33,980 nt of DNA from NCBI GenBank assembly GCA_947370945.1, contig CANBND010000003.1, positions 1-33,980 on the forward strand, in the 5' to 3' direction. The first letter of the stretch is position 1. Each line of letters opens with the position of its first letter. Made by a program: the position numbers and the translations under genes. Of the stretch, positions 3,683-33,980 are shown piece by piece. The notes under the pieces were generated by a model. That model did no database searches. It was given only the letters and a program-made list of their open reading frames with translations, and was not told the DNA's origin. This DNA comes from Pseudobdellovibrionaceae bacterium (GTDB lineage: Bacteria; Bdellovibrionota; Bdellovibrionia; Bdellovibrionales; Bdellovibrionaceae).

Positions 3683-4975
3683 ATGGAAATCAGAGATCCC
3701 ATCCACGGTTCGATAAACTTGACTGACGGCGAGGTCGCCATCATTGAATCGGTCGAGTTTCAACGTCTGCGCGAAATTAAACAGCTTGGCTTTGCCGAAT
3801 TCAGCTTCCCCGGAGCAACTCACAATCGTTTTTTACATTCGATTGGCGTTAGTCACGTTGCCGGACTGGTCTTTGATAGTGTTTTTCGAGCGTTCCCGTT
3901 TAAAAAATCACAAAATAAAAATCGCTTCCGCCAACTTGTTAAATTGGCAGCTCTTCTGCACGACATTGGTCACGGACCCTTAAGCCACACAACAGAACTT
4001 GTGATGCCGCAACTGAAAAAATTAAATATTAAACTTTATAACGATCAAAAAATTTCTCAAGACAGACAAGCCAATCACGAAGATTACACGATCAAATTCG
4101 TGACTGATTCCGAGATCTCGAAAATAATTCAGAAATACTTCCCCGATATCACGGCCGAGCACGTCGCATGTTTGATTGATAAAGATTTAAAGTGTGATGA
4201 ATTTATTTTTCTGGATGGAGTCATTAATTTCAGACCGCTGTTATCACAAATTGTTAGCTCTGAATTAGATGCTGACCGCATGGATTATTTAGAACGTGAT
4301 TCGTACTTCTGCGGAATCAATTACGGAAAAATTGATCGTGATTGGTTAATTCAAAATTTAACCTTGCACATTAAAAATAGCACGGCCTATCTGGCACTGA
4401 ATCGCAGGGCATTGTATGCCTTTGATGATTTTTTAATTTCACGTCACCATATGCATTTGATGGTTTATTTTCATCACAAGAGCATTATTTACGAAGAAAT
4501 GCTGAACAGATATTTAACTTCGCCGGATTGCAAATTCTTTTTACCTGCGGATTCAAACGAATATATTTCATATACAGATTACAAACTGTACGAACATCTG
4601 GATACAGTTGATAATCAATGGGCCCAGCGTATTGCAACTCGAAAACCCTATCGCGTGGCGATTGAATTACATAACCAAGAACAAATTCGTACTGAAAATG
4701 TACAAGCCCTTTTAGAAAAAAAAGGGATCGATACAATTTGGGCCAGTTCAAATGTCCGACTTTCAAAATATCATCAAACTGTTCAAGACATTTCAGAGAA
4801 TCCAAATCAAATTTATGTCATTGATCAATATGACAAATGGGATACGCCATCACCGATTGGTAACGCCACACAAATTTTCAGTAAATACGAAGGTGCGCGC
4901 GTGATTGATCGCGTTTACGTTGCACCTGAAAATTTTGATCATGCGAAGATTTTGTTATCTGAAGCGAAGTACTAA
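3683..4975 (+). CDS. HD-domain phosphohydrolase, SAMHD1/dNTPase-like (COG1078 type)
   Basis: MEIRDPIHGSINL..., HNRFLHSIGVSHVAG, LLHDIGHGPLSHTTE, SSELDADRMDYLERDSYFCGI; internal ATG at 3683 preferred over 3590. Confidence 0.88.
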   Translation: MEIRDPIHGSINLTDGEVAIIESVEFQRLREIKQLGFAEFSFPGATHNRFLHSIGVSHVAGLVFDSVFRAFPFKKSQNKNRFRQLVKLAALLHDIGHGPLSHTTELVMPQLKKLNIKLYNDQKISQDRQANHEDYTIKFVTDSEISKIIQKYFPDITAEHVACLIDKDLKCDEFIFLDGVINFRPLLSQIVSSELDADRMDYLERDSYFCGINYGKIDRDWLIQNLTLHIKNSTAYLALNRRALYAFDDFLISRHHMHLMVYFHHKSIIYEEMLNRYLTSPDCKFFLPADSNEYISYTDYKLYEHLDTVDNQWAQRIATRKPYRVAIELHNQEQIRTENVQALLEKKGIDTIWASSNVRLSKYHQTVQDISENPNQIYVIDQYDKWDTPSPIGNATQIFSKYEGARVIDRVYVAPENFDHAKILLSEAKY

Positions 4976-5659
4976 TTAACTTGCCTTCAAATTCAAATAT
5001 TTAAAATCTTGAATAACATCCCAAGCTGTCGCAAAAGATCCATAAGTTTTTTGTGCTAACTCGGTCGCTGTTAAAGTTGGATTCAAACTCAGTTGCGCCA
5101 CCATGTCTGCCCGATATGACGGACCAATAAGCAATCGATAATAATACGTTGTGTGATATTTTGACAATTGTTGGACTGACAAAATATCATCTTTACGATC
5201 TCGCAATGTGTGCTTTGCTACGACCAATTTACTTTTTTCAAATCGCAAATCTTCACCATGTTTTTTAACTAAAAAACTATACTCACTGGTCAATCCTAAT
5301 AAAATACGATCACCTTTATGCAAAGATTTAAATTTATTAAATCTTGAATCCGTCTTTAATAAATAGGCCAAGGCCGAAAAATAGCACTTTACTTTTATAT
5401 CTTTTAAAATTTTGGTGGCTCGATATAAACGATCTACATTTATTCTTTCAGCGTGAATTTCAATCCAGTTTGTAATTAATGACAGTGTTCGATAGTCACC
5501 GGATAAGCCCTCAATAACTCCGGCAATAAGCGCATCTTCGATATTCACATTTTCTTTTGTGTTTCGATCTCCAATTTTTATACCAACAGCAATCATTGAT
5601 CTGGTTAATAACAGTCCAGTCTGATAAGCATCCGTCGCAATAATTCTTTTAAAACTCAT
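4976..5659 (-). CDS. Uncharacterised protein, partner of nucleotidyltransferase; possible C-terminal winged-helix
   Basis: 227-aa ORF overlapping the upstream nucleotidyltransferase gene by 11 bp; C-terminal NPTLTATELAQKTYGSFATAWDVIQDFK looks like a helix-turn-helix. Confidence 0.75.
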   Translation of the reverse strand: MSFKRIIATDAYQTGLLLTRSMIAVGIKIGDRNTKENVNIEDALIAGVIEGLSGDYRTLSLITNWIEIHAERINVDRLYRATKILKDIKVKCYFSALAYLLKTDSRFNKFKSLHKGDRILLGLTSEYSFLVKKHGEDLRFEKSKLVVAKHTLRDRKDDILSVQQLSKYHTTYYYRLLIGPSYRADMVAQLSLNPTLTATELAQKTYGSFATAWDVIQDFKYLNLKAS

Positions 5660-6188
5660 AGCCTAATTTTTTCGTTAAAATCTGAACTTGCGAATCTACA
5701 TAATTTGGCCAATCAGGATTCGCATCATAGTTTTTAACCCAATCAATAATTTCTAAAAGTTCAGATTTTGTAATTTTTAAATCAATGCAGTCTTGTAAAT
5801 CAAAACCACGGTCACAATAGGCCAGAACCTTTGTGCCAATCAGATCAATTCGACCAAGTGTTTGAAAATGAATGGCCTCTCCAATATAAAGTGGCTCAAG
5901 ACGTTTTTTCCAATCTGTACGTAAATATTTCCGAAGTGATTCAGGGCCATGATTTAACCAATTTTCTTTAAGCGATGTTTGCTCTAGATTGAATTGCACC
6001 GCAAATTCTTTCGAGGCTTTTAAAATATATTCTGGAACAAGCGGATCTAAAACATCAACATCTTGGGTTTGCCTTGTAATAACACCTAATATTGAAAGTG
6101 CAGCGCCGCCAATAACAACCGCAGAAAAGCTAAGTTTTTTATTTTTTAAATAGAGATCAAAATTTTCAACGATCAGTTTTGGCTTCAT
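5649..6188 (-). CDS. Nucleotidyltransferase-fold protein (AbiEii/DUF6036-like)
   Basis: VVIGGAALSILGVITRQTQDVDVLDP (GG...TxDxD) and GTKVLAYCDRGFDLQDCIDL motifs. Confidence 0.75.
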   Translation of the reverse strand: MKPKLIVENFDLYLKNKKLSFSAVVIGGAALSILGVITRQTQDVDVLDPLVPEYILKASKEFAVQFNLEQTSLKENWLNHGPESLRKYLRTDWKKRLEPLYIGEAIHFQTLGRIDLIGTKVLAYCDRGFDLQDCIDLKITKSELLEIIDWVKNYDANPDWPNYVDSQVQILTKKLGYEF

Positions 6189-6196
6189 AAAATTAC

Positions 6197-6237
6197 CTTT
6201 TAAAATAGTATCATTTAAAATGATACTATTTTAAAAG
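6197..6237. promoter_or_regulatory. Perfect 19-bp inverted repeat with 3-nt centre, putative operator (or leader hairpin) of the nucleotidyltransferase operon
   Basis: CTTTTAAAATAGTATCATT-TAA-AATGATACTATTTTAAAAG, 8 bp upstream of the ATG at 6188. Confidence 0.85.
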
Positions 6238-6259
6238 CAATTTAGCAAGATTAAAGACC

Positions 6260-7441
6260 CTAAACTCGCTTCAAAATCACAGCGACACCTTGTCCGCCAC
6301 CAATACACGCAGAACCCAGACCATACTGAACACCACGTCTTTGCATTTCGTAACATAAATGATTTAAAATACGTGTGCCCGAGGCGCCCAACGGATGTCC
6401 AACAGCGATAGCCCCACCATTCACATTTGTTTTTGCCAAATCTAATTTTAATTCTTTGGCCACTGATAAAAATTGTGCGGCAAACGCTTCGTTCACTTCG
6501 ATCAAATCCATTTGTTCCAACGTCATATTTGCCTTTGTCAGAGCTTTGCGAATTGCAGGCGCTGGACCAATGCCCATGATTTTTGGATCACATCCGACAC
6601 TGGCCCACGAAATAATTTCGGCCATCGGTTTTAGGTTATTTTTTTTAACGAAAGATTCACTGGCCACAATTGTACACGCGGCACCATCAACAACACCGGA
6701 TGCTGTTGCCGCAGTGACAAGGCCGTCTTTTTTAAATAAGGCCTTCATCGCAGAAATTTTTTCAAGTGTTGCATCTGGTTTTGGGTGTTCGTCTTTGTTA
6801 ATGATCACTTCACCTTTTTTTGTTGTGACTTTCACATCGCAAATTTCTGTTTCGAAAAATTTTTGATCAAGTGCGTTTTTGCAGCGACGTTGAGTTTCAA
6901 TTGAATACTGATCACAGTCGTTTCGTGTGATTTGATATTTTTCGCCAAGGTTTTCGGCCGTGATTGCCATTGGAATTCCGGCATAAGCGTCAGTTAAGGC
7001 GCTGGTCATGTAATCTTCTAATTCAAAATTACCTAAGCGCATTCCATCAAAACGAACTTTGCGTGCGACATAAGGAATTTGCGACATCTGTTCGACGCCG
7101 CCGGCTAAAATTGCTTGTCCGTCGCCAGATTTTATCATTTGCACGGCGTTGATGACGGATTCAAAACCTGATCCACACAAACGATTCACGATGTATGCTC
7201 CGCGATCAACGGGGATATCACTTTTTAGACCGACGTGTCGTGCCAAATAGGCCGCGTCGGCGCCGCTTTGAATCACGTTACCAATAATCACGTGATCAAT
7301 TTGATCTGGATTTATGTTTGATGCCTGCATTGTGCTTTTTGCGGCAGCCACTGTTAAATCTGTGGCTGAAATATCTTTCAGGCTTCCACCGAATGAACCA
7401 AATGCTGTGCGTTTACCTGTTAATAAATAAATTTTTTCCAT
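6260..7441 (-). CDS. Acetyl-CoA acetyltransferase (thiolase)
   Basis: NRLCGSGFESV active-site Cys, NVNGGAIAVGHPLGASGTR, GSACIGGGQGVAVI. Confidence 0.95.
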   Translation of the reverse strand: MEKIYLLTGKRTAFGSFGGSLKDISATDLTVAAAKSTMQASNINPDQIDHVIIGNVIQSGADAAYLARHVGLKSDIPVDRGAYIVNRLCGSGFESVINAVQMIKSGDGQAILAGGVEQMSQIPYVARKVRFDGMRLGNFELEDYMTSALTDAYAGIPMAITAENLGEKYQITRNDCDQYSIETQRRCKNALDQKFFETEICDVKVTTKKGEVIINKDEHPKPDATLEKISAMKALFKKDGLVTAATASGVVDGAACTIVASESFVKKNNLKPMAEIISWASVGCDPKIMGIGPAPAIRKALTKANMTLEQMDLIEVNEAFAAQFLSVAKELKLDLAKTNVNGGAIAVGHPLGASGTRILNHLCYEMQRRGVQYGLGSACIGGGQGVAVILKRV

Positions 7442-23677: not shown

Positions 23678-23700
23678 TTTAATCTTTATAATTAATATTA

Positions 23701-23732
23701 AAAAACCGTTAGCAAATGCTAACGGTTTTTTT
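23701..23732 (+). terminator. Rho-independent terminator
   Basis: AAAAACCGTTAGCA-aa-TGCTAACGGTTTTT followed by T run, 24 bp after the lipoprotein stop. Confidence 0.93.
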
Positions 23733-23756
23733 ATTTTCATCATTTGCTTTTTAATT

Positions 23757-33805: not shown

Positions 33806-33842
33806 TAAAAGCTAATTCTGCTTCCCGCAGAATTAGCTTTTA
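33806..33842. terminator. Strong hairpin, likely terminator downstream of speA
   Basis: TAAAAGCTAATTCTGC-ttccc-GCAGAATTAGCTTTTA, perfect 16-bp arms. Confidence 0.75.
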
Positions 33843-33849
33843 GTGGATC

Positions 33850-33871
33850 TACCGTCCGAGAAAGGACGGTA
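33850..33871. other. Hairpin-forming inverted repeat
   Basis: TACCGTCC-gagaaa-GGACGGTA, perfect 8-bp arms; outer GGAT/ATCC can extend the stem with a bulge. Confidence 0.7.
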
Positions 33872-33980
33872 TCCGGATGACACATACCAAACATATGCGT
33901 TTTCGTAAGTTTTTAATGATAACTTTAATGGTTTTGAAGATTATATCTATGCAAAGTTAAAATGTCCCTTATTCCGCCCA

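Follow-up and report, generated by a model that had tools for sequence, protein, structure and literature searches.

A 41-bp palindrome before a DUF6036 nucleotidyltransferase operon and its probable role as an operator for the second protein of the operon

In the window, by which the whole analysed stretch of 33,980 nucleotides is meant, a perfect palindrome precedes a two-gene operon encoding a nucleotidyltransferase (NTase) and a second protein, P2; comparison with related operons points to this palindrome as the operator that P2 would bind (with a probability of about 0.8) and through which it would repress its own promoter. An operator for the operon's own product had been proposed in the preliminary description and is strongly supported by the comparison, in which an equivalent site was found in 19 of 19 operons with the same type of P2, with the −10 box inside it in most of them; further backing comes from the different operator of operons with a diverged partner, from the uniqueness of the site in the genome and from the helix-turn-helix (HTH) of P2. 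The whole 41 bp had been assigned to this operator, whereas conservation is confined to the inner 21 bp. Its conservation at the operon's promoter agrees with what defines autorepressed operons. The pair appears to represent an undescribed, horizontally scattered NTase module whose partner family is absent from the curated libraries searched; each of two types of P2 goes with an operator type of its own, which gives an operator code, and a specific protein–DNA pair and a candidate toxin–antitoxin family from relatives of predatory bacteria become directly testable.

Table 1. Positions of the features of the operon and its upstream region in the window
Feature	Positions	Strand	Basis
Perfect palindrome, 41 bp, 20-nt arms and 1-nt centre	6197..6237	-	sequence, simulations; unique in genome
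Conserved 21-bp operator core AGTATCATTTTAAATGATACT	6207..6227	-	equivalent site in 19/19 class-A operons
Outer arm CTTTTAAAAT on +	6197..6206	.	comparison: only in window's copy
Outer arm ATTTTAAAAG on +	6228..6237	.	comparison: only in window's copy
Putative −35 box TTGCTA	6243..6248	-	scan; L075 has TTGACA-17-TATCAT in this register
Putative −10 box TATCAT, inside left half-site of operator	6220..6225	-	promoter scan and comparison
Shine-Dalgarno-like AAAAGG, overlapping right arm	6196..6201	-	sequence
DUF6036 NTase, 179 aa, putative toxin	5649..6188	-	PF19502, AF2 model, PDB neighbours
NTase active-site segment G27 ... R39-x-T41-x-D43-x-D45	6054..6113	-	alignments: invariant or nearly so
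P2, 227 aa, putative autorepressor/antitoxin, 11-nt overlap with NTase gene	4976..5659	-	partner in related operons
P2 C-terminal HTH, residues 182-226	4982..5116	-	model and local Foldseek matches

The palindrome and its conserved core

The coordinates and sequence of the palindrome were correct in the preliminary description, as was its end 8 nt before the ATG of the NTase gene (6188, minus strand); the perfection of the inverted repeat likewise stands, but its arms are better described as 20 nt around a single base than as 19 + 3 + 19. It is the longest perfect inverted repeat in the window (loops of up to 5), and its length is far beyond chance: against the 20 nt observed, the longest arm was 12 among 30 first-order Markov sequences (34 kb each) and 14 among 20,000 simulated 72-bp stretches with the local composition. 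The 41-mer occurs only once in the 2.59-Mb genome, even with up to 3 mismatches allowed. A genome-wide search for the 19-mer, suggested earlier, likewise gave no second copy, and the nearest other match, with 2 mismatches, falls within a coding gene. The exact operator consensus also has a single occurrence in the window's genome, and sites with one mismatch remain at background (16 versus 14 for the control); with a single copy each of the 41-mer and of the exact consensus, a genome-wide repeat or regulon was rejected, and the operon itself is most likely all that the switch controls.

Searches of related genomes and of GTDB contigs recovered the same NTase–P2 pair in scattered Bdellovibrionota, Myxococcota and Acidobacteriota, and in one MAG labelled as Planctomycetota. 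Class A comprises the 19 non-redundant operons with a P2 of the window's type, the window included, the other P2s being 37–45% identical to that of the window. An operator resembling NGTATC-N9-GATACC is located 0–52 nt before the NTase ATG in every one of these 19 operons; the 21-bp sites show few departures from this pattern, and TAT at positions 3–5 and ATAC at positions 17–20 are invariant. The inner 19 bp are identical in the window and in the related operon L075, whose P2 is 43–44% identical and whose proteins are about 44–47% identical to those of the window, and the upstream sequences of the related operons are unrelated. A different palindrome, GTATTGTA-N3-TACAATAC, is found in the operons whose P2 shows only about 27% identity (class B), while the NTases of the two classes stay about 45–50% identical, and a third group has ATATTAC-type sites before the NTase. 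In all three operator types, TAT lies about 6–8 bases from the centre, so that the half-sites differ in their letters but not in their spacing. Some class-B loci, namely L044/L115 (from −73 to −38 relative to the NTase start), L118 and L120, show two overlapping or tandem arrays of TATTGTA/TACAATA half-sites instead of one palindrome.

At the level of single residues, proline at window position 210 of P2 occurs in four operons, and these alone have T, not G, at operator position 16, although they form a single clade and so possibly reflect one event. Co-evolution between the HTH segment and the operator was also tested statistically and rejected, since the correlation of their divergence (Mantel r 0.15) is no stronger than that for the rest of P2.

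The outer 10 + 10 bp of the window's palindrome are not common to the related operons and are left unexplained by the 21-bp operator, and the probability of 10 further matching pairs by chance is about 1.6e-6. Long near-perfect palindromes before the NTase are also present in two distant DUF6036 operons, L055 (−43 to −15; ATACTGGTATGTATAATACATACCAGTAT) and L124 (−61 to −23; TAGCACAACTATGTTG...CAACATAGTTGTGCTA); extended arms are therefore not confined to the window.

Promoter overlap, repression and alternative readings

A TATAAT, TATACT or TATAGT hexamer occupies operator positions 10–15 in 12 of the 19 class-A operons, and a −35 box with at least 5 of 6 matches stands 16–18 nt upstream in 7 of 19, where 0.3 were expected and none of 2000 shuffles reached this number. 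In the window and L075, the −10 box is better placed at TATCAT (operator positions 3–8), 17 nt after TTGCTA or TTGACA, which leaves a leader with a Shine-Dalgarno sequence; transcription in the window would then start at about 6213. With the −10 box at positions 10–15, the ATG follows after 6–10 nt in about half of the operons, and their message would be leaderless. In both layouts, the operator would cover the core promoter and the transcript would start in or after the palindrome. The window's own −35 box is weak (4/6), and promoter-like sites near the palindrome were not significantly enriched in the scan.

According to the mechanism proposed from these comparisons, P2, most likely as a dimer, would contact both GTATC half-sites within the inner 21 bp through its C-terminal HTH and, because the −10 box lies within the operator, bound P2 would exclude RNA polymerase. 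Once P2 is lost or titrated, transcription would start inside the palindrome, and NTase and P2 would be made from one overlapping message, the former as the probable toxin and the latter as the probable antitoxin and repressor of a mobile two-gene module. P2 binding, dimerisation, repression, the start site and NTase toxicity are all inferred here.

The hairpin proposed earlier to hide the Shine-Dalgarno sequence fails for transcripts that start inside the palindrome, the RNA of which (−4.2 kcal/mol) is unstructured around this site, and may apply to read-through RNA only. The overlap of AAAAGG (6201-6196) with the right arm is confirmed in the sequence, and the thiolase gene, which has the same orientation, stops 22 nt upstream without a clear terminator; in the read-through RNA the palindrome folds with −28.3 kcal/mol (z −4.7), with AAAAGG in the stem, and the hairpin is extended by a bulge as far as the ATG. 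Two levels of control can be considered, in which the inner 21 bp would act as the P2 operator and the outer arms would fold the read-through RNA over the ribosome-binding site; this arrangement is tentative and has a rather low probability, although, if true, the module, inserted behind a housekeeping gene, would be translated solely from its own repressible promoter, as an insulation device for the toxin gene. It is also unlikely that such folding of the thiolase read-through transcript, burying the Shine-Dalgarno sequence and blocking NTase translation, explains the element, either alone or beside the operator. The outer arms are perfect and present only in the window's copy, in favour of a hairpin, but they are not conserved, the recurring part keeps its sequence and not merely its pairing, and at least 10 of the 19 related operons have the ATG 0–4 nt after the operator, mostly with the −10 box inside it, so that the main transcript would lack the hairpin. 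The RNA hairpin is a possible second layer peculiar to the window's copy.

Since the binding partner is deduced from conservation alone, a different host regulator, or even the NTase, could instead be the protein that binds the operator; this is very improbable, as the operator travels with the NTase–P2 operon across phyla, changes with the type of P2 while the NTases of both types remain similar, and is a singleton in the window's genome. A terminator of the thiolase gene is hardly tenable, for although the palindrome sits just past the thiolase stop and was flagged as terminator-like in a terminator scan (19 pairs, 3 GC, tail GTAATTTTAT), an immediate U-run is missing and GC pairs number only 3, the other members of the genus examined have a different sequence after the thiolase without such a palindrome, and the operator accompanies the NTase gene, not the thiolase; the earlier remark that it fits a terminator poorly was fair. 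The long hairpins at 23688-23743 and 33806-33842, just past gene ends, resemble ordinary terminators, unlike the palindrome.

The two proteins and known systems

The NTase matches PF19502 (46.6 bits, cut-off 23.6), as do 15 of its 15 aligned relatives, and belongs to DUF6036, for which no mention was found in the literature searched. D43 and D45 of its DxD motif are invariant in the alignments. No sequence match was detected in the PDB; the AF2 model (pLDDT 93.9) is nearest in Foldseek to 5uvd, MenT1 (8an5) and Rv1045 (6j7p), and combines an NTase fold with a conserved DxD, as in MenT-like enzymes (8an5, E 0.045). MenT1 and Rv1045/TglT are the closest solved toxins, with Foldseek probabilities of 0.93 and 0.84, respectively, and share the DxD-type NTase core, although the E-values are weak and their partner proteins are unrelated to P2.

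For P2, a known family was rejected: none was found in Pfam, NCBIfam or PADLOC, the match in PHROGs is weak and partial (E 0.009, function unknown), and no sequence relative exists in the PDB. Its AF2 model (pLDDT 92.6) confidently predicts an HTH at the C-terminus, with helices at residues 182-192, 198-205 and 209-226; Foldseek against the PDB gave no whole-fold match, only local HTH matches to Lrp-type and phage proteins. The RX4-6H RNase motif of HEPN-MNT partners is not present in P2, where the distance between the conserved R57 and H69 is 12 residues.

The analogy with AbiE drawn in the preliminary description holds for the mode of working, and not for membership. As in AbiE (AbiEi/AbiEii of Streptococcus agalactiae) and MenAT (Rv2827c/Rv2826c), an NTase is combined with a (here putative) DNA-binding partner in one operon and an inverted repeat overlaps the (here putative) promoter, and both AbiEi and Rv2827c autorepress (PMC7319586). 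Membership in AbiE was rejected on three counts, namely the AbiEii profile, the N-terminal winged HTH of COG5340 and the paired repeats: the NTase is a DUF6036 protein, with 12.8 bits for AbiEii/DUF1814 (cut-off 22.5) and an E-value of 0.035 for PADLOC AbiEii; no search of Pfam, NCBIfam or PADLOC makes P2 COG5340-like, and its HTH is C-terminal instead of N-terminal, AbiEi being absent among its listed Foldseek matches; and a single 21-bp palindrome replaces the pairs of 23-bp repeats of AbiE/MenAT (PMC7319586). The NTase gene also comes first in the window's operon, unlike in AbiE/MenAT.

In MqsRA-type systems, an antitoxin with a C-terminal HTH represses the promoter. The toxin gene comes first in these operons (PMC6918082), a likeness to the window's operon with its putative toxin in first place, while the toxin fold and the antitoxin family are different.

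Toxin–antitoxin function and genomic setting

A toxin–antitoxin function of the pair appears somewhat favoured by the pattern of gene loss. In 8 operons (L006, L010, L011, L014, L016, L022, L024 and L063), a stop, a deletion or a frameshift disrupts the NTase, whereas P2 is intact, a count that is partly biased, as many loci were found through P2, and that MAG frameshifts may inflate; the reverse case was not seen among the operons compared, and in L121 both genes are broken. A broken NTase beside an intact P2 is the pattern that would be expected from toxin loss with antitoxin retention.

A phage or plasmid origin was rejected, since the window's NTase found no match in either collection; in viral contigs, one distant NTase–P2 relative (L062) was found via the NTase, and none by the search with P2. 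In the same genus, L101 has the HD gene directly after the thiolase with no operon between, and other genomes have a different sequence there, so that the pair gives the impression of having been inserted at a variable site. The contents of this gap in the window (4973-6260), L093, L094, L099, L100 and L101 suggest a local insertion hotspot. At 4973-4978, the stop codons of P2 and the convergent HD-domain gene abut, with neither spacer nor terminator between them. Identical 21-mers near contig ends, at window 33868-33888 and G000 contig C121:205-225, and at C76:126-146 and C105:8871-8891, are probably repeats where the assembly breaks.
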